Shown in pieces: positions 1,619 to 14,340 of a DNA stretch of 64,000 nucleotides. This DNA comes from Micavibrio aeruginosavorus EPB. GTDB taxonomy: Bacteria; Pseudomonadota; Alphaproteobacteria; Micavibrionales; Micavibrionaceae. Under the pieces are notes generated by a model. It ran no database searches. It was not told the DNA's origin and was given only the letters and a program-made list of their open reading frames with translations. The stretch covers positions 1,807,444-1,871,443 of the forward strand of contig NC_020812.1 of the NCBI RefSeq assembly GCF_000348745.1, in the 5' to 3' direction. Position 1 is the first letter of the stretch. Every line of letters starts with the position of its first letter. Position numbers and translations under genes: made by a program.

Positions 1619-1752
1619 CAGCAAAGGATTGATTTCGTACGATTGCACCCGTTTTGTTAACCATCCATTCACCGACCTGCCCCATTATGGTGTGGGGGAA
1701 ATGCCCGAATACTCTGTTGCGACCATCACTTCAAAACCTGCGGACTTCGACT

Positions 1753-2994
1753 TTGACAAAATCCGATTCAAACGGCGCCAGCCATTCCAAACGCAGCTTT
1801 GACACCGGCGAAATCATCATGCGCCAGGGTGATGCGGGCGATTGCGCCTATATCATCGAAGAAGGCACCGTCGAAATTCTGATCGAAAAACCCGATGGCC
1901 GTGTTCAGCACGTGGGCACGCGTGGTCCCGGCGCATTGATCGGCGAAATGGCCATTGTTGACAGCGCACCCCGCACCGCAACCGTGCGCGCATTGAAACC
2001 ATGCAAGATGCTGGAAATCACGATGGAGGATTTCACCAGCCGCCTGACCGGCACCGATCCGGTCATGCAAATGATTATGCAGGTGATCCTGACCCGGTAT
2101 CGCGATACGCTGACACGCGCCGATATTTTACACGACAGCGATTCATTCCCGCCCCCAGAAATGCTGGAACAGGATCTGGCGGAAAAAGCCGATGTTGTTG
2201 AATCCATCAAAATCGCCAACGAATTTCAAACCGCGCTGGAAAAGGGCGAACTGTCCCTGCACTATCAACCGATCATTGATTTGACGCGCGGCAATGTTGT
2301 CGGGTTCGAAGCGTTGATGCGCTGGATCCACCCGGAGAAGGGATTTATTTCCCCCGGCGTCTTTATTCCCATCGCCGAAAAGAATGGATTGATTGTTCAG
2401 GCCAGCCGTTGGGCGCTGGGTGAATCATGTCGCGCCCTGCGCCGGATCGAGGCCCGCGTTGGCGCCGATCGCGAAATGTATATGAGCGTCAACTTCTCCT
2501 CGACCGATTTCGCGTCGGAGAATTTTATCGACCACCTCTATAACATCATCAGCGAAAGCGATGTCCTGCCGACACAGGTCCGTTTGGAAATCACCGAACG
2601 CCTGCTGATTCAGCAACCGGATAACGCCAAAGCGATGTTGCAGATGTGCAAAGATGCCGGCATGGGCATTGCGATTGACGATTTCGGGACGGGATACTCC
2701 TCGCTCAGCTATCTCTACTACTTCCCGATTGATACGTTGAAAGTGGACCAAAGCTTCGTTCGCGCGATGCAGCGGGATGAAAAAAGCCTGGAACTGGTTA
2801 AATCCATCGTCGGGCTGGGCAAAAACATGAAAATGTCGATTATCGCCGAAGGTGTTGAAACTGTTGAAGAAGCCCGCCTGTTGCAGGATATGGGCTGTGA
2901 CAAGGTGCAGGGTTACTATTTTGCGAAACCGATGCCGGAAAAAGACGTCATCGAGTTCCTGCGCAATTATCAGCCGGTCAAATTGCGGGCGTAA
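1753..2994 (+). CDS. Cyclic-nucleotide-binding domain / EAL c-di-GMP phosphodiesterase
   Basis: Predicted cytoplasmic enzyme hydrolysing c-di-GMP to pGpG, with an N-terminal cNMP sensor. Residues about 15-130 form a CNB domain (GEIIMRQGDAGDCAYIIEEG, then a GEMAIVDSAPRTATV phosphate-binding cassette). Residues about 160-400 form the EAL domain with the signature EAL at 186-188, VNFSSTDF, LEITERLL, DDFGTGYSSL (D309, D310), the catalytic-glutamate segment IIAEGVET and QGYYF. All metal and catalytic positions I can recognise are present, so activity is likely. The start is uncertain: I chose TTG 1753; the frame is open back to 1654, and a different frame (1611-1802) looks equally coding upstream. 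It is next to a secreted adhesin-like gene and a cyclase-T1SS operon, which suggests a shared signalling role. Confidence 0.85.
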   Translation: MTKSDSNGASHSKRSFDTGEIIMRQGDAGDCAYIIEEGTVEILIEKPDGRVQHVGTRGPGALIGEMAIVDSAPRTATVRALKPCKMLEITMEDFTSRLTGTDPVMQMIMQVILTRYRDTLTRADILHDSDSFPPPEMLEQDLAEKADVVESIKIANEFQTALEKGELSLHYQPIIDLTRGNVVGFEALMRWIHPEKGFISPGVFIPIAEKNGLIVQASRWALGESCRALRRIEARVGADREMYMSVNFSSTDFASENFIDHLYNIISESDVLPTQVRLEITERLLIQQPDNAKAMLQMCKDAGMGIAIDDFGTGYSSLSYLYYFPIDTLKVDQSFVRAMQRDEKSLELVKSIVGLGKNMKMSIIAEGVETVEEARLLQDMGCDKVQGYYFAKPMPEKDVIEFLRNYQPVKLRA

Positions 2995-3255: not shown

Positions 3256-6200
3256 ATGGCACGGAATATTGATGGCAGTGTCGAAGGCGTTTCCAGTTCC
3301 GATCAGGGAACAGTGAAAACAATCGATGCCAGCGGACAGACGAAAATCGATCTGCCGGATTCCAGCTTCATCACGGATGTAACGATGACGCGCGACGGGC
3401 AAGACCTGACCCTGCGCAATGATGATGGCCAAACCATCACCATCGAAAATTATTTCAGCGCCGACACCGCCCCCGTGTTGAGCAGCCCGAATGGCGCCAT
3501 CCTCAGCCCCGCGATGGTCAAATCTTTTGTTCACAGTGAAACCGCAGGACAATACGCGCAAATGGGCTCCGTCGATGACGTCAGCCCTGTTGGCGAAATC
3601 ACCGAATTGAATGGCAACGCAACCGTTACCCGCGCCGATGGCACAACCGAAACCATCACGCTGGGAACGAAAGTTTTCCAGGGTGACGTGATTGAAACGC
3701 AGGGTGATGGTGCGGTCAATATCACCTTCATCGATGAAACCAGCTTCGCCGTATCCGAAAACGCCAAACTGGCGATTGACGAATATATTTTCGACCCGGC
3801 CAGTGGATCGGGGAAAACGGATTTCTCGGTTTTGAAAGGCGTGTTCGTGTTTACGTCCGGACTGATCGGACGTGAAGATCCGGATGACGTGACAATCGAC
3901 ACCCCTGTCGGGTCCATCGGTATTCGCGGCACAACCATCATGGGCGATATCGACCCCAGCGGTCAGAGCCAGATCACCGTGGTCGAAGGGGCCATCGTCG
4001 TGCGCACCGAAGCGGGTGAACGCACATTGGCCGAACAATTCGAAACCGTCACACTGACCGGACAGGACAGCGAACCCGCCTATCAAGGCACGCTGGATGC
4101 CAACCGCGTGACCGATGATTACGGTGCCGTAAAATCCGTATCCGGTACGTTGTTCAGCGCCTTTGGGACGGGTGATGCCCCATCCGCGGACACCGCAGGC
4201 GAGGCCCCGGCCGATGCCGCCGCACCGGACGCGTCCGAAACGACCGTTCCCGAGGGTGAAGATGACGGTGCCGCACAGGAAAGCACCCCGGCAGAGACAG
4301 CCCCGCAACAAGATGGCGCGTTGAACGTTGCCCCCAAGACAGACACAGCTCTGGTCGGTGATGATAGCATGACCGGCGGACTGGATAGCGGGTTTGACCG
4401 CGCCGCCGATACGGGCACCACACTGACCAACGCAACAGGAACAGTCGGCAACACCGTTGGGACGATTGTAAACACAACGGGCGGGATCTTGGGATCCACA
4501 ACAACCAACACCGCGCCCGCCATCACAACACGACCAACGGACACAACCAGCCCGACCGATCCGTCTGTCCTGCCCAACACGGGCACGGATACGGGAACGG
4601 GTTCGGGCGGCGGGAGTGTGACAACACCGCCACCACCGACCTTGGCCCTGAACCTGAACATGCTTGGAAACCTGAGCGATATCAGTCTGTCCGGCGTTGT
4701 TGTCGGGACGGTGTCGACAACCGTGGCCTATACTGAAACATTGAACTTTGTTTTGAATTCCCCCTTAAGCGGCGGTGGGGATCCACTGTTCCAGCTGGTA
4801 TCCACGGGTCCGGATTCAGCCAATATCGTTCTGACCCCCGCGGGGGCCCTGCATCTACTGGCCAACCAGACTTATAATCTGAGCGTGACCGTGACCGAGC
4901 CATCCTCTGGACGCACGGCATCCACGGCCAACACCGCCCCGGTTATGGATGAGGCCGATATTTCCCTGAACGATATTCTGGGGGCCGGGTCCACAGCCGA
5001 TGGACGGTATATCCCGTCCATATCCGCGGGATCACACCACGCCCAAGCGGTGGCCGCCGTCGGCGATACGGATGGAAATGGCACCGCAAATTACATTTTT
5101 GCCAGCAACAATACGTTGTTCCTGGACGATAATGGCGGCAACATTTCACAATACAGCCTGTCAACACTGGGATTTGACAACACCGAGGGCCTGTCGATCA
5201 ACGGGGTCGGTGACGTGGATGGCGACGGACTTTTGGATTATATCGTCGGTGGCCGAAACACATCCAGTGGCGAAGGCCGCGCCGTATTGATCAGCGGAAA
5301 TGGCACCACATCCGGGGTCGATGGATCGTCAGGCGTAAGCCATTTTGGCCATGAAGCAATTGGTATTGGCGACATTAACGGCGATGGATATGCCGATGTG
5401 ATGATCACCTCCCCCAGTGCATCCGTCTATGGTAAGGCCGGAATTTATCTGGGTGGCAGTGATTTCAGCAATATTTTGACAACCACGCCGGATTACGTGA
5501 TCAACGGTCCGTCGACAAACAGCAATCTGGGCCGTGAAGCCGCCAGCCTGGGCGATTTGAATCAGGATGGATTTGACGATTTCGCTGTTACAGTACCGAA
5601 AACAGCCGGCGCCATGAACGGTGAAGTCTGGATTTATAACGGCGGCAACACATTAAACACGGCCACCCCGTTCAAAATCACCGGGTTGCAGACCGGATCC
5701 GACGGCGGATTGGGCCTGATCAATCTGGGCGACATGAACGGCGGGTATAAAAACGATTTCGCCATTTATGAAAGCGGAACCGACACAATTCACGTGGTCT
5801 TTGGTGAAGGAAAAACGTTCACCGCCGGTGGAACAACAACGATCAGTACCGTGTCTGATTTACGCATTACGGCCAGCGACGCCAATTCAAAAATTGAAGG
5901 CGGCGGCAGTGTTGGTGATTATAACGGTGATGGGCGCGATGACATGGCGGTTGCCGTTCGCACCGATTCCACGATGGATATTTACGTGGTTTACGGTCGC
6001 GCCGGTGTCGCAGGTTCGATTGATCTGGATAATTTGACATTGGAAAAACACCAATACGAACATATTCGCATCAATCTGGCCGACCCGGCTCTGGGACTGG
6101 GCAACCCCACGACCGACCCATTTGATGTTGAGATCACCGCGCTCGGCGACTTGAACGGCGACGGATATGATGATTTCGCCATTGGCACACCGGACAGCAA

Positions 6201-6816
6201 TGGTGGTGATGGTGGATTATACCTGATGTACGGACAATCCGATGGCGGTTTGACGTCCACCGGGCAAGCCCTGGTCACCGGAACAAACGCAACGGCCACG
6301 GCCGCGGGTCAGGCCGTTGTTGGAACGAACGCCAATGACACGTTGTCGGATGGCGGGACATTTTCGAACGTTGCCATTAATGGCGGTGCCGGGAATGACG
6401 TGATCACCCTCTTCTCGGCCAACACGCGTCACGTTGATGGTGGGTCGGGATACGATCAGGTTAAACTGAACAGTTCCGGCTTGATCGACCTGAGCGGTGC
6501 CGATGGAGGGGCGAGCAGCAACAGCCTGATGAACGTCGAGGAAATCACCTTGATGCAGGCGTCCAGCACATTAAAGATGGACATGGCCGACATTTTCAAA
6601 CTGTTGCAACAATCGGCCGATAACCAGCTTTATATCAACACCGAAGGAACATTGAGCGGATCCCTGCAATTATATGAAGGCGGCACGGTTGAATCCCTGA
6701 CCAATGCCGGGTTCACGCAAACCGGAACATCCAGCGTTGGCGGAACCGATTACAATGTGTTTGAAATGGGTGGGTACCAATTATATGTCGACACAAACGT
6801 CGCTGTGACCGTCTAA
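3256..6816 (+). CDS. Large secreted FecR-domain / FG-GAP beta-propeller / RTX-like protein (probable T1SS substrate)
   Basis: The 1186-residue product has no Sec signal. Residues 1-110 resemble the N-terminal module of large alphaproteobacterial T1SS adhesins (SSFITDVTMTRDGQDLTL; ENYFSADTAPVLSSPNGA). A FecR domain follows (about 118-260; DETSFAVSENAKLAIDEY), then an Ala/Glu/Thr/Pro-rich linker (about 300-460) and a cadherin-like stretch (about 460-555). Seven FG-GAP calcium loops follow (GDxxGDG type near residues 602, 651, 705, 764, 823, 886, 963), which is a full seven-bladed integrin-alpha-like propeller. Next come degenerate RTX motifs (NGGAGNDVITLF, HVDGGSGYDQV) and a glycine/aromatic C-terminus fitting a type I secretion signal. 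Blade 5 has an imperfect loop (DMNGGYKND). The T1SS operon is convergent with 3 bases between stops. A surface or released adhesin is inferred. Confidence 0.85.
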   Translation: MARNIDGSVEGVSSSDQGTVKTIDASGQTKIDLPDSSFITDVTMTRDGQDLTLRNDDGQTITIENYFSADTAPVLSSPNGAILSPAMVKSFVHSETAGQYAQMGSVDDVSPVGEITELNGNATVTRADGTTETITLGTKVFQGDVIETQGDGAVNITFIDETSFAVSENAKLAIDEYIFDPASGSGKTDFSVLKGVFVFTSGLIGREDPDDVTIDTPVGSIGIRGTTIMGDIDPSGQSQITVVEGAIVVRTEAGERTLAEQFETVTLTGQDSEPAYQGTLDANRVTDDYGAVKSVSGTLFSAFGTGDAPSADTAGEAPADAAAPDASETTVPEGEDDGAAQESTPAETAPQQDGALNVAPKTDTALVGDDSMTGGLDSGFDRAADTGTTLTNATGTVGNTVGTIVNTTGGILGSTTTNTAPAITTRPTDTTSPTDPSVLPNTGTDTGTGSGGGSVTTPPPPTLALNLNMLGNLSDISLSGVVVGTVSTTVAYTETLNFVLNSPLSGGGDPLFQLVSTGPDSANIVLTPAGALHLLANQTYNLSVTVTEPSSGRTASTANTAPVMDEADISLNDILGAGSTADGRYIPSISAGSHHAQAVAAVGDTDGNGTANYIFASNNTLFLDDNGGNISQYSLSTLGFDNTEGLSINGVGDVDGDGLLDYIVGGRNTSSGEGRAVLISGNGTTSGVDGSSGVSHFGHEAIGIGDINGDGYADVMITSPSASVYGKAGIYLGGSDFSNILTTTPDYVINGPSTNSNLGREAASLGDLNQDGFDDFAVTVPKTAGAMNGEVWIYNGGNTLNTATPFKITGLQTGSDGGLGLINLGDMNGGYKNDFAIYESGTDTIHVVFGEGKTFTAGGTTTISTVSDLRITASDANSKIEGGGSVGDYNGDGRDDMAVAVRTDSTMDIYVVYGRAGVAGSIDLDNLTLEKHQYEHIRINLADPALGLGNPTTDPFDVEITALGDLNGDGYDDFAIGTPDSNGGDGGLYLMYGQSDGGLTSTGQALVTGTNATATAAGQAVVGTNANDTLSDGGTFSNVAINGGAGNDVITLFSANTRHVDGGSGYDQVKLNSSGLIDLSGADGGASSNSLMNVEEITLMQASSTLKMDMADIFKLLQQSADNQLYINTEGTLSGSLQLYEGGTVESLTNAGFTQTGTSSVGGTDYNVFEMGGYQLYVDTNVAVTV

Positions 6817-6819
6817 CGC

Positions 6820-9078
6820 CTATTTCGACGTCGCTTCAAAAACACCGTCCCAGCCATCGCCGGGGCGGTTGTTTTTTAAGGTCCGAATACGGGACAGGAA
6901 TACATCATAATACCCGTTCATCTGCGCATTCGATGCCGACCGCGCCTGAACCAAGGCCTGTTCCGCACCGTCAAAATCCGCCGCCCGGTACAGATCAAGC
7001 ATGGATTGATGCGCGACCATCCAAGCCATAAAATCTGGCGTCATGGCATAGGATTCATCACCGACCAACGTAAAGATGCGCACGGGTTCTGTTTTCCCCT
7101 TCACGCGCAGCAAGTCCAGTTCGACAAAAGCCAAAGGCCCCGCCGCATTCTTCGTACGCTCCGACACCAGAATTTGCACACCATAAGCCTTGGTCTGCCC
7201 TTCCAGCCGCGAGGCCAGGTTCACGGAATCGCCCAAAGCAGAATACGCAAAACGTTGTTTCGATCCCATATTGCCGACGGATGTCATGCCCGTATTGACG
7301 CCGATTCCCGCGCTCAAGACCAAGGGCTTTTGTCCATTTTGTGCGGCCCGTTCCGCCAATGCGGCATTGATCGGGGCCAGCGCGTCATTCATCTGCAACG
7401 CCGTCAGGCAGGCGCGGCGCGCATGGTCCGGGTCATCCAGCGGCGCGTTCCAGAACGCCATCATGGCGTCCCCCATATATTTGTCGATGGTGCCCCGATT
7501 TTCCATGACCAATGACGACATCGGCGTCAGGAAATCATTCATCAGCTGGATCAGCTCTTCCGGGCTCAACCGTTCGGAAATACTGGTGAAGCCGCGAATA
7601 TCCGTAAACATGATGGACAGTTCACGCACTTCCCCGCCCAAACGCAGCTTGTCCGGGTCGTTGGTCAGCTCCTTCATATAGTCGGGCGAAATATACAGGC
7701 CAAACGCCTGACGAATCTGGCGGCGATCGGCCTCCATCCGGATATAGGCCAACAAGGCGGACGCCATAAAAATCACGCCCAGCGCCAGGGACGGATAAAA
7801 CACATCAATCAACTGGCCATGATTCAGGAAGGCATACCACCCGCCATACACCCCACCCCCGACCAGCAGGGTCACCATCGCCGCCTGACCAAAGGCCCCG
7901 ATAAACGGTGCCAAGCCGACGATCAATAACCCCGCGACCAGGATGGCCACAGCCTCCAGCCCCTCAACCTCGATTGAGCGGTGCAGGAATTTTTCCTGCA
8001 AAATCTGGTCAATAATATTCAGGTGAACCTCAACCCCCGGACGGAATACGTCCAATGGCGTGGCCCGGATATCTTTTAGTCCGATGGCGCTGGTTCCGAT
8101 CAAAACGATTTTACTGCGGATCAGGGACGGATCGACCGTGCCATCCAGAACGCTGGCCGCCGACACATACCAATCGTCGCGCGACTTGGCGAAATAGGCG
8201 AGGAAATTGCCCTGTGCATCCGTGGGAATCAGAACCTTGTTTTTCAGGAAGCGTAGCCCCTCTACCCCGAAGCGGCTGGAATCCAGTTCCGCAAACCGCT
8301 CATCCGCCAATTCAATGGACAGGGCCTTTTCACCCAACAGATAACGCACAACCTCCAACGACAAGGACGGATAGAAGAAGGATATATCACCCCCATCCTT
8401 GCCCTGATCCTGCATCGCCACGACCATCGGCACGCGACGAATAACGCCATCGGTATCCGCCGTAACGAAGAAGCTGCCTTCGCCATAGGCCCCTTTGCTA
8501 ATCACGGGTAAATTGACCGTGGCATTGTTCATGATACGGACGTAACGCTCAGCATTTTTCTGGCTGAAAAAGGCTTTTTGCATGGGCCGATTGCCGGTTT
8601 CTTCGGTGACGAAGGAAAATCCGGTAATGACATTGCCCGCCTTGGCGATGGCGTCCCCGAAAACCGTGTCGTTATCGGGCAATTTCTCAATCGCTGCGCG
8701 CAAATCACCGGCCCCGTCTTCCGTCGGTATATAAGAGAGCAGACGTTGCGGGCTGACCCGATCATGTTCAGGAAAAACGGTATCGAACGCGATGACCAAC
8801 GCGCCCTGCTCATTCAATTTCTCAACCAACTGCGCCAGCACATCGCGCGGCCAGGGCCATTGCCCCAATTCAGGCCGCGCCATTGATGCTTCGTCAATAT
8901 CGACAATCACCACATTATTGCCGGGATCGCGTGGCTTCAGAATATTGTAGTAATCAAAGGTAAAATGACGAATTTCCTGCCGCCAGCGGGCGTTGGAAAA
9001 ACTCAACCCCACAGCCACCGCCACCAAAACCAGCAGCAGGCACAAATGGAACCAGCGATTGATGGCAAGGCGCATCAT
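6820..9078 (-). CDS. CHASE2-domain class III adenylate/guanylate cyclase
   Basis: The 752-residue membrane protein starts with one transmembrane helix, followed by a large extracytoplasmic CHASE2 sensor (about 30-370; KPRDPGNNVVIVDIDEAS, WPWPRDVLAQLVEKL). Three further membrane helices (about 375-450) lead to a cytoplasmic class III cyclase domain. The two metal-binding aspartates are present (D493 in MFTDIRGFT, D537 in KYMGDAMMAFW), as is SALGDSVNLASRLEG with the base-contacting Asp and transition-state Asn/Arg. I cannot firmly tell cAMP from cGMP output. It is the last gene of the tolC-ABC-hlyD operon, 6 bases after hlyD, so it is made together with the secretion machine. Confidence 0.92.
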   Translation of the reverse strand: MMRLAINRWFHLCLLLVLVAVAVGLSFSNARWRQEIRHFTFDYYNILKPRDPGNNVVIVDIDEASMARPELGQWPWPRDVLAQLVEKLNEQGALVIAFDTVFPEHDRVSPQRLLSYIPTEDGAGDLRAAIEKLPDNDTVFGDAIAKAGNVITGFSFVTEETGNRPMQKAFFSQKNAERYVRIMNNATVNLPVISKGAYGEGSFFVTADTDGVIRRVPMVVAMQDQGKDGGDISFFYPSLSLEVVRYLLGEKALSIELADERFAELDSSRFGVEGLRFLKNKVLIPTDAQGNFLAYFAKSRDDWYVSAASVLDGTVDPSLIRSKIVLIGTSAIGLKDIRATPLDVFRPGVEVHLNIIDQILQEKFLHRSIEVEGLEAVAILVAGLLIVGLAPFIGAFGQAAMVTLLVGGGVYGGWYAFLNHGQLIDVFYPSLALGVIFMASALLAYIRMEADRRQIRQAFGLYISPDYMKELTNDPDKLRLGGEVRELSIMFTDIRGFTSISERLSPEELIQLMNDFLTPMSSLVMENRGTIDKYMGDAMMAFWNAPLDDPDHARRACLTALQMNDALAPINAALAERAAQNGQKPLVLSAGIGVNTGMTSVGNMGSKQRFAYSALGDSVNLASRLEGQTKAYGVQILVSERTKNAAGPLAFVELDLLRVKGKTEPVRIFTLVGDESYAMTPDFMAWMVAHQSMLDLYRAADFDGAEQALVQARSASNAQMNGYYDVFLSRIRTLKNNRPGDGWDGVFEATSK
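6844..6877 (+). terminator. Terminator of the secreted-protein gene, inside the 3' end of the convergent cyclase gene
   Basis: ACCGTCCC (6844-6851) pairs with GGGGCGGT (6862-6869; one G-T wobble), then TG and six T (6872-6877) on the plus strand. It is 28 bases past the stop of the 1186-codon gene and overlaps the last codons of the cyclase on the other strand. Confidence 0.6.
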
Positions 9079-9084
9079 CAGCGA

Positions 9085-10398
9085 TCAAATCTCTGTAAAG
9101 GCTTTATCTTTAGCCATGAGAACAGGCTTGGCCAGATACTCAAGAATGGTACGACGGCCCGTGATGACCTCAATCATCGCCACCATACCCGGCGTGATAG
9201 GCAACGGGTTTTCCGCCGTCCCCAGATAGTTTTTATCGGTCTGCACTTCGACTTCGAAAAATGTATTGCCTTCCTCATCGGCAATGCTGTTCGCACCGAT
9301 CCGGACCAGTTTCCCATGAAGACTGCCATAACGCTGCGCGTTATAGGCGCTGATCTTCACTTTTACATCCTGCCCAACATCCAGAAACGCAATATCATTC
9401 GGCGATACGCGGGCGGTGATTTTCAATTCCGGTTCCGCCGGAACAATTTCCACCAATTGCTGGGCGGGCTGGATCACGCCGCCGATGGTTTTAATCGCAA
9501 TGTTGTTGACCACACCATCAACGGGCGATTTGATTTCTGCGCGCGACACCCGATCGCCAATGGATTTCAAGCTTTCTTGTAAACGGGAAATTTCGGTTTC
9601 AACGGCGTTCATCTCGCTCAAGGCCTGGGACCGGAAACGATCCTGCTGGTCTTCGGCTTCTTTCTTTGCCGCGCTTAATTGCGCCTCCAACCCGGTCATT
9701 TTTTGACGGTTGGCGTTTAATTGCCCCTGAATATCATTCAATTCACGTTCCAGCCGAATTTGCTCCAACTTCGGCACGGCCTTTTGCTCGACCATTTTGC
9801 GGGTAATGGCCAATTCCTGATTCAACAACCCTGCGCTGGAGCTCAGACGATTGATTTGCGCCTTGGTTTCGGCGATCTCGGCATTGGCCTTTTCAATCTT
9901 GTCTTTGGTAATAGAAGTCGCATTGGCTAGTTCGCGCTGACGCGATTCATACAGCGCCTTTTCATTGGCCGCGATTTGCGGTGCATCCTTCACAATGTCG
10001 GCGGGCAGAGCCAACGCGGCCCCGGTTGATTCCGCTTCCAGCCGTGCGCGTTTGGCACGCAGAGTCAGGCTCTGCGCCTGTGCGCCGCCTTGTTCCGATG
10101 AATAAAACACGTCGGACAGACGCATCAGAACCTGATCCTTGGCCACGCGGTCGCCTTCACGGACCAAAAGGTCCTGTAAAATGCCGCCCTCCAGACTTTG
10201 CACAATCTGGATTTCGCTGGTCGGAACCACCTGCCCCTGACCGCGCACCAGCATGTCGACCTTGGAAAATCCGGCCCAGAGAAAGAACAGAACAATCAAA
10301 CCGACAACGCTATACAACATAATGGCCGATGCACGGGCCGGACGCATGCGCGTTGCCGCTTCCAATTCGGACATATAATCAGTTTCGCGGATGGTCAT
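9085..10398 (-). CDS. HlyD-family type I secretion periplasmic adaptor
   Basis: Membrane fusion protein linking the inner-membrane ABC exporter to the outer-membrane TolC channel. The 437-residue product has a short cytoplasmic N-terminus, one transmembrane helix (about 25-45; VVGLIVLFFLWAGFSKVD), a biotinyl-lipoyl half-motif (VQSLEGGILQDLLVREGD), a long coiled-coil hairpin (about 100-290), and the closing half (RAEIKSPVDGVVNNI) with a beta-barrel and C-terminal region (ITPGMVAMIEVITGRRTILEYL). Its length is normal for HlyD/LapC proteins. The start overlaps the stop of the ABC gene by 4 bases, implying translational coupling. Confidence 0.95.
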   Translation of the reverse strand: MTIRETDYMSELEAATRMRPARASAIMLYSVVGLIVLFFLWAGFSKVDMLVRGQGQVVPTSEIQIVQSLEGGILQDLLVREGDRVAKDQVLMRLSDVFYSSEQGGAQAQSLTLRAKRARLEAESTGAALALPADIVKDAPQIAANEKALYESRQRELANATSITKDKIEKANAEIAETKAQINRLSSSAGLLNQELAITRKMVEQKAVPKLEQIRLERELNDIQGQLNANRQKMTGLEAQLSAAKKEAEDQQDRFRSQALSEMNAVETEISRLQESLKSIGDRVSRAEIKSPVDGVVNNIAIKTIGGVIQPAQQLVEIVPAEPELKITARVSPNDIAFLDVGQDVKVKISAYNAQRYGSLHGKLVRIGANSIADEEGNTFFEVEVQTDKNYLGTAENPLPITPGMVAMIEVITGRRTILEYLAKPVLMAKDKAFTEI

Positions 10399-12578
10399 GC
10401 CGATGCTCCAGTCTTCGGTGCGGAAACACCCTGCGCCAAGGCCTGGATCACCTTGTCACGCGGCCCGTCGATCAACACACGCCCTTGATCCATAACGATC
10501 AAACGATCCACCAGCGTCAGCAAATGTTGGCGGTGCGTGATCAGGATCAGCGTTTTTCCTTCGGATTGTCCGCGGATATGGCGAACGAAAGCTTCTTCGG
10601 CCTGCATGTCCATGGCGTTGGTCGGTTCATCACACACCATGATGGCGGGGCTGAGCAACATGGCGCGCGCCAGCGCAATCGCCTGACGCTGGCCACCGGA
10701 CAGGCCCGCACCCTGTTCACCCACCGGCGCGTCATACCCCATGGGGTGACGTGACACAAATTCATGCACGCCTGATGCCATGGATGCAGCCAGAATTTCT
10801 TCCTCGGTCGCCTGCGGGCGGGCGATGGAGATATTTTCACGCACCGACCCGCGGAACAGAACGATGTCCTGCGCGATATAGGCAATGTTCCGGCGCAAAT
10901 CCGCCGGATCAATCTGGCGGTAATCGGTATCATCGGCAAATAATGTGCCGGCCTTCGGTTCATACAATCCCGTAATCAACCGGGCAACCGTGCTTTTTCC
11001 CGACCCCACACGCCCGACAATACCAACCTTTTCGCCGTGTTCGATGGTGAAGGTCACATCGCGCAGAATATCGCGATCGGTATGCGGGTATGCAAAGGTT
11101 ACGTTTTCAAATTTGATTTTTCCGTTCAACACCGGGCGATGCAGGAAATTTTTATGCGGCGGGCGTTCCACCGGATTGGCCATAAATTCATTCAGCGATT
11201 TCAGCGCACGCATCGTCTGGTGATACCGCGACATCAGCCCGGCAATCTGCCCGATCGGGGCGATGGCCCGCCCGCTCAGCAACACACAGGCAATCAGCGC
11301 ACCCATGGTGATGGACTGGTCACGCACCAGATACATCCCCAGCAACACCGCCGCAATGCTGGCCGATTGTTGCAGGAAGGTGGCAATGTTGACGCCCATG
11401 GCGGAATAAAAACGCGATGTTTGTGCGTGTGCCGCGGCATCGGCCGCCATTTCGCCATAGCGGGCACGCAGACGACCATCGGCCCCAATCGCCTTGATGG
11501 TTTCCAGACCATGGATGGTTTCAACCAAAAGACCATGTTTGGATTCCGCCGTGTACATGGTTTTGCGCACCGCGGCCTGTAACGGAATTTGCACCATCCA
11601 GCCCACCGCCGCCGCCACCGCAATCAACGACCCCAACAACAATGCAATCGGACCACCCAGAACCCAGATGACCGCCAGAAACAGCAACGTAAACGGCAGA
11701 TCAACCAATGTAGTCAGCGTCGCCGACGTCATAAATTCGCGAACGGAATCAAATTCGCGCAACATGTTGGCAAACGCCCCGCCCGACGGCGGACGGGCGG
11801 ACAGTTTCATATCCAGCAATTGACCGTAAATGCGGCGCGCCGCCACGACGTCAATTTTACGTCCGGCGAAATCGATAAAATACCCGCGCAAGGTCCGCAT
11901 CAGGAAATCGAAACCAAAAATGGTCAGTGCCCCAATCCCCAACACCCATCCAGTTTCAACCGCGGCATTCGGAATGACGCGGTCATACACCGTCATGATA
12001 AAAATCGGGCTGGTCAGCGCGAACATATTGATCATCACGGCGGCCAAGCCAACCTGCCCGTAAATGGCGCTGTTATTCAGGAACGGGCCCCAGAACCAGT
12101 GACGATCCGTATCTTGTAAATGCGGGGCCTGCGGATCATGAAATTCGGCGTTCGGGTGAATATAAATGGCATATCCACCGTAATTTTTGTCCAGCGCATC
12201 AATCGCCACATCTTTTTCCGCGCCGGTTTCGGGCAGGAATACGCGCGCCGTGTTTTTATCATTGTCAAGCGCCAGCAAGACACAGGCCCCGCCCCCCTGC
12301 ATCACCAGAACGACAGGCAAGGCATAGGATGAAATATGCGTCACGGTCTTGCGTTTCACGATACTGGTTTTCAAACCAATACGGCCCGCAGCCTCGCAAA
12401 ACAAATTCGGCCCCATGCCGCGTTCATCATACGGCATGCCGGCATGAAGAGCCTCGGCAGAACGTGCATGGCCGAAATGTCCGGTCAGAAAGACCAGACA
12501 ATTCAAAAGCGGATCGACCGATTGCGCCGCGGAAATAACGGAAGATGGGGTTGACGGATCCACGGGTGCGTCATTCAT
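10395..12578 (-). CDS. Type I secretion ABC transporter, LapB-like, with degenerate C39 domain
   Basis: Inner-membrane permease-ATPase that powers one-step export. The 727-residue product has an N-terminal C39-peptidase-like domain (about 20-145), a six-helix ABC membrane domain (about 170-450) and a nucleotide-binding domain with Walker A (GRVGSGKST), signature (LSGGQRQ), Walker B (IMVCDEPT) and H-loop (LITHRQH). In the N-terminal domain the catalytic Cys position appears to be Pro (VDPLLNCL), so it should bind rather than cut its substrate, as in HlyB/LapB. The ATG at 12578 sits within the end of tolC (8-base overlap). An open frame continues 57 bases upstream, but that stretch is basic, lies inside tolC, and is unlikely to be translated. 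Confidence 0.94.
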   Translation of the reverse strand: MNDAPVDPSTPSSVISAAQSVDPLLNCLVFLTGHFGHARSAEALHAGMPYDERGMGPNLFCEAAGRIGLKTSIVKRKTVTHISSYALPVVLVMQGGGACVLLALDNDKNTARVFLPETGAEKDVAIDALDKNYGGYAIYIHPNAEFHDPQAPHLQDTDRHWFWGPFLNNSAIYGQVGLAAVMINMFALTSPIFIMTVYDRVIPNAAVETGWVLGIGALTIFGFDFLMRTLRGYFIDFAGRKIDVVAARRIYGQLLDMKLSARPPSGGAFANMLREFDSVREFMTSATLTTLVDLPFTLLFLAVIWVLGGPIALLLGSLIAVAAAVGWMVQIPLQAAVRKTMYTAESKHGLLVETIHGLETIKAIGADGRLRARYGEMAADAAAHAQTSRFYSAMGVNIATFLQQSASIAAVLLGMYLVRDQSITMGALIACVLLSGRAIAPIGQIAGLMSRYHQTMRALKSLNEFMANPVERPPHKNFLHRPVLNGKIKFENVTFAYPHTDRDILRDVTFTIEHGEKVGIVGRVGSGKSTVARLITGLYEPKAGTLFADDTDYRQIDPADLRRNIAYIAQDIVLFRGSVRENISIARPQATEEEILAASMASGVHEFVSRHPMGYDAPVGEQGAGLSGGQRQAIALARAMLLSPAIMVCDEPTNAMDMQAEEAFVRHIRGQSEGKTLILITHRQHLLTLVDRLIVMDQGRVLIDGPRDKVIQALAQGVSAPKTGASA

Positions 12579-13995
12579 GCGCCGCGCCCGCCGCCATTTT
12601 CGCGTCTTCTTTTGCTTCGTTCTGCGCATTTTCATAGGCAGACACGATGCTCATCACATCCTGCAAATGCCCCATATGGGCCAGAACCGCATATTGCGCG
12701 GCCAGATGACGGTAATCGGCATTCACAACACCCAGACGGGCATTAAAATTGTTGTTTTCCGCCTGCAACAGATTCAGCAACGTCACCTTTGCCGCTTCAA
12801 ACTGCTTTTCATAGGTGGTCAACAAATCCTTGGTCACACCAACGCGGTCGCGCCCATTGTCCAGACGGTCTTTGGCGGCCTGCATTTCGGCATAGGATGT
12901 ACGAATCTGGCGTTCAATGTTGCGGCTGATTTCATCGCGGCGGGCCTGGCTTTCGGCATAGCGGCTGGTCGCCTTGCGAATGCGGGCCAACTCTGCCCCA
13001 CCGGTTGAAAATGTCCAATCCATCCGCACGACGGCCTTGGCGTCCACCACTTCACCGCCGATGATGTCGGCCTGATCTTTTTTCAGGTAAGACAGCTCAC
13101 CACTGAAATCGGGGTACAGCGCCCCTTTTTCCGCATCGGCATCACGGGCGAAGGCTTCCTTCGTTTCATCCGCCACGCGCAGCGCCGGATGTTCCTGCAA
13201 CGCCAGAATGACCGCCTCGTCCACATCCGCCAAAACGGTATCGGACGGCAAATCGGGGCGGATCAGCGGGTCGGTCGGCACCTGTCCCACCACTTCGCGA
13301 TATTCGGCAACGGCCTTGGCAAATTCGCCTTCGATTTCGGATTGCGTACTGTCCAACTGGATTTGAATATCGTGCGCCTGCACGGCCATGGATTCATCGG
13401 CGGCACCCTGCTCCACCATGGAGTCAATGCGGGTGCGGTAATCGGCGATCAATTTATTGTGATCGGTGATCATGGCCACAGCTTCACGAGTTCGCAGCAC
13501 ATCGAGATAGGCGAGCACAACACGCAAGCCCAGATTTTCCCGCACATCGGCCACATTGCTTCCGGCGGACCGCACACGCGCATCGGCGGCACCGACACGA
13601 TTGACTGTTTCCAATCCATCCCAGAGCGTCTGGCGCACGGCCACGCTGCCTTCATACAGCCATGAATACCCAGCCCCTCGCTCCACGGTCAGGCCGCGGC
13701 TGGTGCTGTTGTCGCCATAAATACGCCCCATGGACCCGCTGGCGTTCAATTCAGGGAAGTAACCGGAACGCTGTTCCTGTTTCTCCTCGGCATAATAATC
13801 CCGACTTTTCATCGCCGCCTGCACCGTGGGGTGCGCGTTCAGGGCCGATACCATGGCCTCCTGCAACGTCTCGGACTGTGCGGATGTGGCAAACCCAAAG
13901 GCCGAAGCCCCTGCAAGCACAGCAAACACCGCCGTGCGCGCCAACAAGGAGGCCCGCAGGGGGAAAGCCGGAAAAAATTTCAATGACATGGACAT
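12571..13995 (-). CDS. TolC-family outer-membrane efflux protein
   Basis: Outer-membrane channel of the type I secretion system. The 474-residue product opens with a signal peptide (LLARTAVFAVLAGASAFGFA, cut near SAQS) and carries two outer-membrane efflux repeats (LQEAMVSALNAHPTVQAAM in the first, EAVILALQEHPALRVADE in the second) with long coiled helices, ending in a short acidic tail. I chose ATG 13995 because it places a clean signal peptide at the N-terminus; ATG 13989 is an alternative. The open frame running back to 14154 is Cys/Leu-rich and implausible. It is the first gene of the T1SS-cyclase operon. Confidence 0.93.
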   Translation of the reverse strand: MSMSLKFFPAFPLRASLLARTAVFAVLAGASAFGFATSAQSETLQEAMVSALNAHPTVQAAMKSRDYYAEEKQEQRSGYFPELNASGSMGRIYGDNSTSRGLTVERGAGYSWLYEGSVAVRQTLWDGLETVNRVGAADARVRSAGSNVADVRENLGLRVVLAYLDVLRTREAVAMITDHNKLIADYRTRIDSMVEQGAADESMAVQAHDIQIQLDSTQSEIEGEFAKAVAEYREVVGQVPTDPLIRPDLPSDTVLADVDEAVILALQEHPALRVADETKEAFARDADAEKGALYPDFSGELSYLKKDQADIIGGEVVDAKAVVRMDWTFSTGGAELARIRKATSRYAESQARRDEISRNIERQIRTSYAEMQAAKDRLDNGRDRVGVTKDLLTTYEKQFEAAKVTLLNLLQAENNNFNARLGVVNADYRHLAAQYAVLAHMGHLQDVMSIVSAYENAQNEAKEDAKMAAGAAHE

Positions 13996-14340
13996 ACAGG
14001 GGCGCGTTCGTTTTATAAGAACAAAGAATAGCCCCTTGAATCTAAACAAAAACGACGCAACAGGCAAGGCCGCAGAGCAACAGCAGACCAATTGCACCGC
14101 ACGCGTGCAGCGCGTCATGAATACCAGCACGCAAACACCGCAATAACAGTGCATTCCATAGGGGCGCAGGCTTCACAAAAAGCACCATATCTGCCATGGT
14201 TTTACCGCGTGATGACGCGCAGAGAATCAGAAGAAAAATAAAATACCATAATGATTTTTCAGAACATCGATTCTTTTCAAGCCGATTTCTGGTCCCATGG
14301 CCAGATCTAATCACTGAATTTATCAGGGGATCTTACGACC
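13996..14340 (-). promoter_or_regulatory. Divergent control region between the T1SS operon and pntAA
   Basis: A 345-base stretch without a supported gene. Toward tolC, minus-strand TTCAAG and TATAAA are 17 bases apart, ending about 15 bases before the chosen start, a fair sigma-70-like promoter. The middle is moderately AT-rich. Toward pntAA I find only the AGGGG ribosome site near 14324 and no convincing promoter. Short open frames here (for example minus 14042-14198) lack ribosome sites. Confidence 0.35.

Follow-up and report, generated by a model that had tools for sequence, protein, structure and literature searches.

The window, that is, the whole 64,000-nucleotide stretch of Micavibrio aeruginosavorus EPB DNA analyzed here, contains a complete type I secretion (T1SS) gene trio (ABC permease/ATPase, HlyD and TolC, all present together at the locus), a CHASE2 cyclase gene on the same strand, and two genes facing them on the opposite strand. 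The relevant features, with the basis of each assignment, are as follows.

1654..2994, plus strand: P0006, a predicted cNMP-binding and EAL phosphodiesterase, Bd1971-like (profiles, alignment)
3256..6816, plus strand: P0005, a probable T1SS substrate/adhesin of 1186 aa (profiles, motif scan)
3580..4065, plus strand: constant module of P0005, residues 109-270 (MpIBP retention domain, 5ix9, and FecR/PupR fold)
5212..6228, plus strand: FG-GAP repeats of P0005, the cargo part, which differs among genomes (profile)
6820..9078, minus strand: predicted CHASE2 class III (IIIb-type) adenylyl cyclase of 752 aa (domain profiles, catalytic residues)
7087..7626, minus strand: cyclase catalytic domain (profile, residue alignment)
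7747..7953, minus strand: three TM helices after CHASE2, residues 376-444 (hydropathy and model)
7969..8994, minus strand: CHASE2 ectodomain, residues 29-370, predicted to be periplasmic (profile, model)
9085..10398, minus strand: HlyD-type T1SS membrane-fusion protein (TIGR01843, E 1.4e-119, above the curated cut-off)
10395..12578, minus strand: T1SS ABC permease/ATPase of the LssB/LapB type (TIGR03375, E 1.6e-262, above the curated cut-off)
12571..14154, minus strand: TolC-family outer-membrane protein, the first gene of the operon (OEP, PF02321)

Gene calls, spacing and conservation place tolC, the ABC gene, hlyD and the cyclase gene in a single minus-strand operon. The original prediction had put the cyclase start 6 bases past the hlyD stop and had hlyD overlapping the ABC gene by 4 bases; both spacings were confirmed, with the hlyD TGA at 9087-9085, the intervening bases at 9084-9079, the cyclase ATG at 9078 and the hlyD/ABC overlap at 10395-10398. 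Such spacing does not in itself establish the fixed ratio of sensor to exporter that the original prediction drew from it. The longest ABC ORF starts at 12635, but the ATG at 12578 is the likelier start, and the N-terminus of the product is weakly C39-like. Since this likely start overlaps the end of tolC, the cyclase is gene 4 of TolC-ABC-HlyD-cyclase. The true tolC start is probably inside the ORF (12571-14154), with orthologues being shorter, and the match of the product to TIGR01844 is under the cut-off. A separate cyclase promoter, named in the original prediction as evidence against the operon, is not indicated: the promoter-like sites numbered 8 versus 7.2 ± 3.0 expected by chance, and none of the predicted sites is found immediately before the cyclase on the minus strand. 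Terminator-like sites were likewise at the chance level. On the other side, the substrate and cyclase genes are convergent with 3 bases between their ends (window 6816-6820), and this arrangement is equally tight in other loci; therefore, the two transcripts may overlap.

The cyclase matched the CHASE2 (PF05226, E 2.5e-57) and Guanylate_cyc (E 1.4e-22) profiles. With a fourth TM helix at residues 10-28, the CHASE2 domain sits between the first TM helix and the C-terminal TM bundle, which is the CHASE2 receptor layout. The catalytic domain carries the metal-binding residues D493 and D537, the adenine-type pair K533/S613 and the transition-state residues N620 and R624, and these six residues are invariant in 35/35 orthologues of the order and nearly so outside it. 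A Lys paired with Ser/Thr is typical of class IIIb, and the nearest solved relatives are adenylyl cyclases, CyaB among them; the CHASE2 protein is thus predicted from its sequence to make cAMP. It is the sole class III cyclase in 28 of the 40 genomes that have any, and the 17 genomes without CHASE2 have none, which would make the CHASE2 cyclase the main cAMP source. A fold search of the PDB with the ectodomain gave no confident match, which does not demonstrate a new fold. In two genus mates, the cyclase ORF is split in two by an apparent frameshift (L038 of G002, 8138-10395; L067 of G003, 6949-9095), which may reflect either a sequencing error or true gene loss.

The gene for P0005 converges with the cyclase gene and lies between it and the gene for P0006. 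P0005 consists, in order, of a BapA-like prefix, the retention/FecR module, FG-GAP repeats and an RTX-like C-terminus, without a signal peptide. The model of its N-terminal part (pLDDT 90) resembles anti-sigma domains of the FecR type (Z about 14). The module model also matches 5ix9, a domain for anchoring at the cell surface (Z 8.8, 75/76 residues), which the module profile finds at E 3.8e-11 and which we take to be the domain that retains MpIBP, an ice-binding adhesin of Marinomonas, in the periplasm. Both the PDB names and PMC13090378 agree with this identification. The predicted module thus fits an N-terminal periplasmic retention domain of the LapA/MpIBP type. All 35 module proteins lack a hydrophobic N-terminus, and 17 of them, including P0005, carry an RTX motif; P0005 is a probable secreted T1SS substrate. 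The cargo differs among the proteins that share the constant module, being FG-GAP at the locus and an unrelated 470-700 aa in those encoded elsewhere. A LapG site, [T/A/P]AAG, was not found near the module in P0005, and 3/34 other proteins had a match. The LapD search matched 0/58 genomes, with control genomes giving no match either. PF06035 (LapG family) matches occurred in 55/58 genomes but are uninformative on the module, because they are mostly partial and are also found in module-less genomes.

P0006 aligns with Bd1971 of Bdellovibrio over almost its full length (E 5.6e-71) and retains the cNMP phosphate-binding motif GEMAIVDSAPRTATV (Bd1971: GEMALIDNQNRSASV) and the EAL catalytic motifs EALMRW and DDFGTG. 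Its ORF is about 40 N-terminal codons longer than its orthologues (window 1654-1770), and the real start is probably later. According to PMC6717892, the phosphodiesterase activity of Bd1971 is stimulated by cAMP and cGMP; a Micavibrio homologue is named there, and deletion of Bd1971 in Bdellovibrio is reported to have no clear predation phenotype. By analogy, P0006 would be switched on by cAMP. The genome encodes five cNMP-binding proteins in all, and the others could take the cAMP as well.

We then considered how widely the hlyD-cyclase pair recurs. Across 58 genomes of the order, including that of the window, exactly one CHASE2 protein was present in 41. Forty order loci were examined, one of which (L048) was cut. 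Of the 39 readable loci, 35 have hlyD as the immediate upstream neighbour of the cyclase in the same orientation, the exceptions being L034, L037, L056 and L057. The gap did not exceed 30 nt in 31 of the 33 measured order loci, with a median of 6 nt and six overlapping pairs, so the pairing is more than chance. Outside the order, we examined 80 of the highest-scoring CHASE2 loci in a class list (79 readable), a non-random sample in which T1SS genes (ABC or HlyD) lay within 6 kb of CHASE2 in 14/79 loci, ABC plus HlyD in 10/79 and a FecR protein in 32/79. The hlyD gene immediately precedes the CHASE2 gene, with a gap of at most 7 nt, in L083, L088, L108 and L125, and the order ABC-HlyD-CHASE2 is also found in L246 (Afipia birgiae), L235 (Afipia) and L228 (Hyphomicrobiales), as well as in L234 (Tardiphaga) and L220 (Bradyrhizobiaceae), where a FecR protein precedes the ABC gene. 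In several Bradyrhizobium, a giant FecR protein gene lies directly before the cyclase. Other families have two forms of FecR protein in the neighbourhood of CHASE2, one with FecR near the N-terminus and a hydrophobic start in 32/42, and the other with a prefix of about 90 or more residues and no hydrophobic start in 21/22. The original prediction would also have failed had the pairing not recurred in other genomes; taken together, its proposal of a CHASE2 cyclase as a fourth, non-standard gene of a T1SS operon is borne out, with recurrence in many genomes. The unit originally drawn was nevertheless too small, since the retention/FecR protein and the cNMP-EAL protein also belong to it.

The exporter, the retention-module protein, the cyclase and the cNMP-EAL protein are gained or lost jointly, even when unlinked. 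An HlyD orthologue was present in 40/41 genomes with CHASE2 vs 1/17 without, a cNMP-EAL orthologue in 38/41 vs 3/17, and the retention/FecR module, counted at E < 1e-50, in 39/41 vs 3/17; the corresponding Fisher p values, calculated over 57 relatives with the window's genome excluded and with large FecR proteins counted by ORF length, take no account of common descent. G048, G051 and G057 have the exporter, the module protein and the cyclase, all at separate loci. The exceptions are G050, which keeps the cyclase and cNMP-EAL but lacks the HlyD orthologue and the full module, G028, which has the module without the cyclase, and G057, which has the cyclase without a cNMP-EAL orthologue. Such co-occurrence shows shared function and is no proof of a signalling step. 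The cNMP-EAL gene is convergent beside the cyclase or substrate gene in 29 loci, 11 of them without an intervening substrate gene. In these 11 (L040, L041, L052, L054, L056, L060, L062, L063, L068, L069 and L070), cNMP-EAL is still beside the cyclase and the large module protein is encoded elsewhere, except for L056 (G050), which has short FecR proteins only.

The original prediction also held that CHASE2 could sense the substrate in transit or at the surface. T1SS cargo passes through a closed conduit; only an anchored N-terminus would face the periplasm. Among 31 genomes, the CHASE2 and FecR-module distances had a partial correlation of 0.00 (p 0.49) given the HlyD and catalytic-domain distances, vs 0.72 for the FecR module and HlyD, in a mirror-type test that would not detect contact via universally conserved residues. 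The window ectodomain is 43% identical to those of the genus mates G1 and G3 and 55-56% identical to those of G14, G15, G20 and G32, while its HlyD and catalytic domain are closest to those of the genus mates. In the ectodomain tree, G0/G2 grouped with G14, G15, G20 and G32 (100/99) and the genus clade was rejected (AU p 1.35e-8), whereas the HlyD tree recovered the genus clade (100/99) and rejected the alternative grouping (p 0.001), and the catalytic domain held the genus together with a support of 80 (alternative grouping, p 0.07); these p values are optimistic because the clades were named after seeing the identities. The cargo, unlike the ectodomain, puts G0 with G1, G3 and G18. A swapped or transferred CHASE2 ectodomain fits these sequence comparisons best and would point to a signal other than cargo. 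Substrate sensing by CHASE2 is thus not supported, as the ectodomain covaries with neither the FecR module nor the cargo.

We propose, with about an even chance of being right, a cAMP-to-c-di-GMP relay that is tied to a periplasm-anchored adhesin and built around the type I exporter. Judging from spacing and conservation, the predicted CHASE2 adenylyl cyclase would be made together with TolC-ABC-HlyD from the same operon, and the exporter would secrete the adjacent FG-GAP protein, or one with other cargo elsewhere; the constant N-terminal retention/FecR module of this protein would, by homology, remain in the periplasm and anchor the adhesin. A signal at the CHASE2 ectodomain would raise cAMP, which would activate the neighbouring cNMP-EAL protein, as judged from Bd1971, and lower c-di-GMP, and the lower c-di-GMP may in turn alter attachment or adhesin display. 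The history of the ectodomain speaks for a signal from outside or from the envelope rather than for cargo recognition. The predicted cyclase and the predicted cAMP-controlled c-di-GMP phosphodiesterase share their gains and losses with the exporter and its presumably anchored adhesin. In Micavibrio, the module may serve prey attachment.

Alternatively, CHASE2 might read the anchored FecR/retention module directly, with the presence or absence of this plug setting the cAMP output. Both the CHASE2 ectodomain and the FecR module face the periplasm by prediction, the module and the cyclase co-occur, the FecR proteins near 32/79 CHASE2 loci outside the order use two export routes, and CHASE2-FecR clustering has been published for Campylobacterota and Burkholderia (PMC9239204, PMC5192318). 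We nevertheless consider direct reading doubtful, given the absence of CHASE2-FecR covariation against the strong FecR-HlyD correlation and an ectodomain history that is unlike that of HlyD and does not follow the cargo. It is also unlikely that the cyclase serves the cell as a general cAMP sensor and sits in the operon for co-expression only, with other cNMP proteins mostly acting and the EAL protein incidental: cNMP-EAL adjoins the cyclase even without a substrate gene and is mostly lost along with it, although the cyclase is often the sole class III cyclase, the genome has other cNMP-binding proteins and one genome has the cyclase without an exporter orthologue. Most of the evidence comes from a single order with shared ancestry, as would be expected of a functionally meaningless operon linkage inherited in one lineage; the joint loss and retention, including in genomes with unlinked parts, and the same gene pair in other families, such as in Afipia (L246) and Tardiphaga (L234), make this very improbable.

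The proposed relay has several known counterparts. Clusters of a CHASE2-type adenylate cyclase beside a FecR-domain envelope protein are known in Campylobacterota (PMC9239204); they include a TPR protein and a cAMP phosphodiesterase, whereas here the FecR domain is on a T1SS-type adhesin, accompanied by exporter genes and cNMP-EAL. The BiofilmReg operon of Burkholderia (PMC5192318) likewise pairs a FecR protein, of the LysM-FecR type, with a CHASE2 receptor and is linked to biofilms, but its output is a histidine kinase, and a term search of PMC5192318 found no mention of T1SS. CHASE2-FecR clustering is thus already published, and its T1SS-adhesin version appears undescribed in open-access papers, where we found neither this version nor a CHASE2-T1SS link. 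A T1SS described at GMV0107-0111 in the genome paper on ARL-13 (PMC3189940) corresponds by its position to the second HlyD of G002 and not to the present locus.

In Sinorhizobium, CyaD1/CyaD2/CyaK-NsrA (PMC13001267, PMC5498481) also comprises CHASE2 cyclases that make cAMP on an outside signal; the signal comes via the outer-membrane NsrA, the output goes via the regulator Clr, and no exporter operon is described in the accessible parts of these papers. Bd1971 shares the cNMP plus EAL architecture of P0006, but the accessible part of PMC6717892 describes no tie to a CHASE2 cyclase or a T1SS. The Lap system (LapA/LapBCE/LapD/LapG; Dvh variant, PMC13090378) has, as here, a T1SS adhesin with an N-terminal periplasmic retention module, and differs in that the window protein is without a LapG site after the module. 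The locus might even form an as yet undescribed circuit of the envelope, a cAMP counterpart of LapD/LapG, in which an exchangeable CHASE2 ectodomain would monitor the anchored module in the periplasm and cAMP would switch a dedicated cNMP-EAL enzyme, coupling display to c-di-GMP, an idea that we hold tentatively and rate as improbable. In the Lap system, display is decided by c-di-GMP (PMC13090378), a feature that the proposed relay would share; control here would begin at cAMP.
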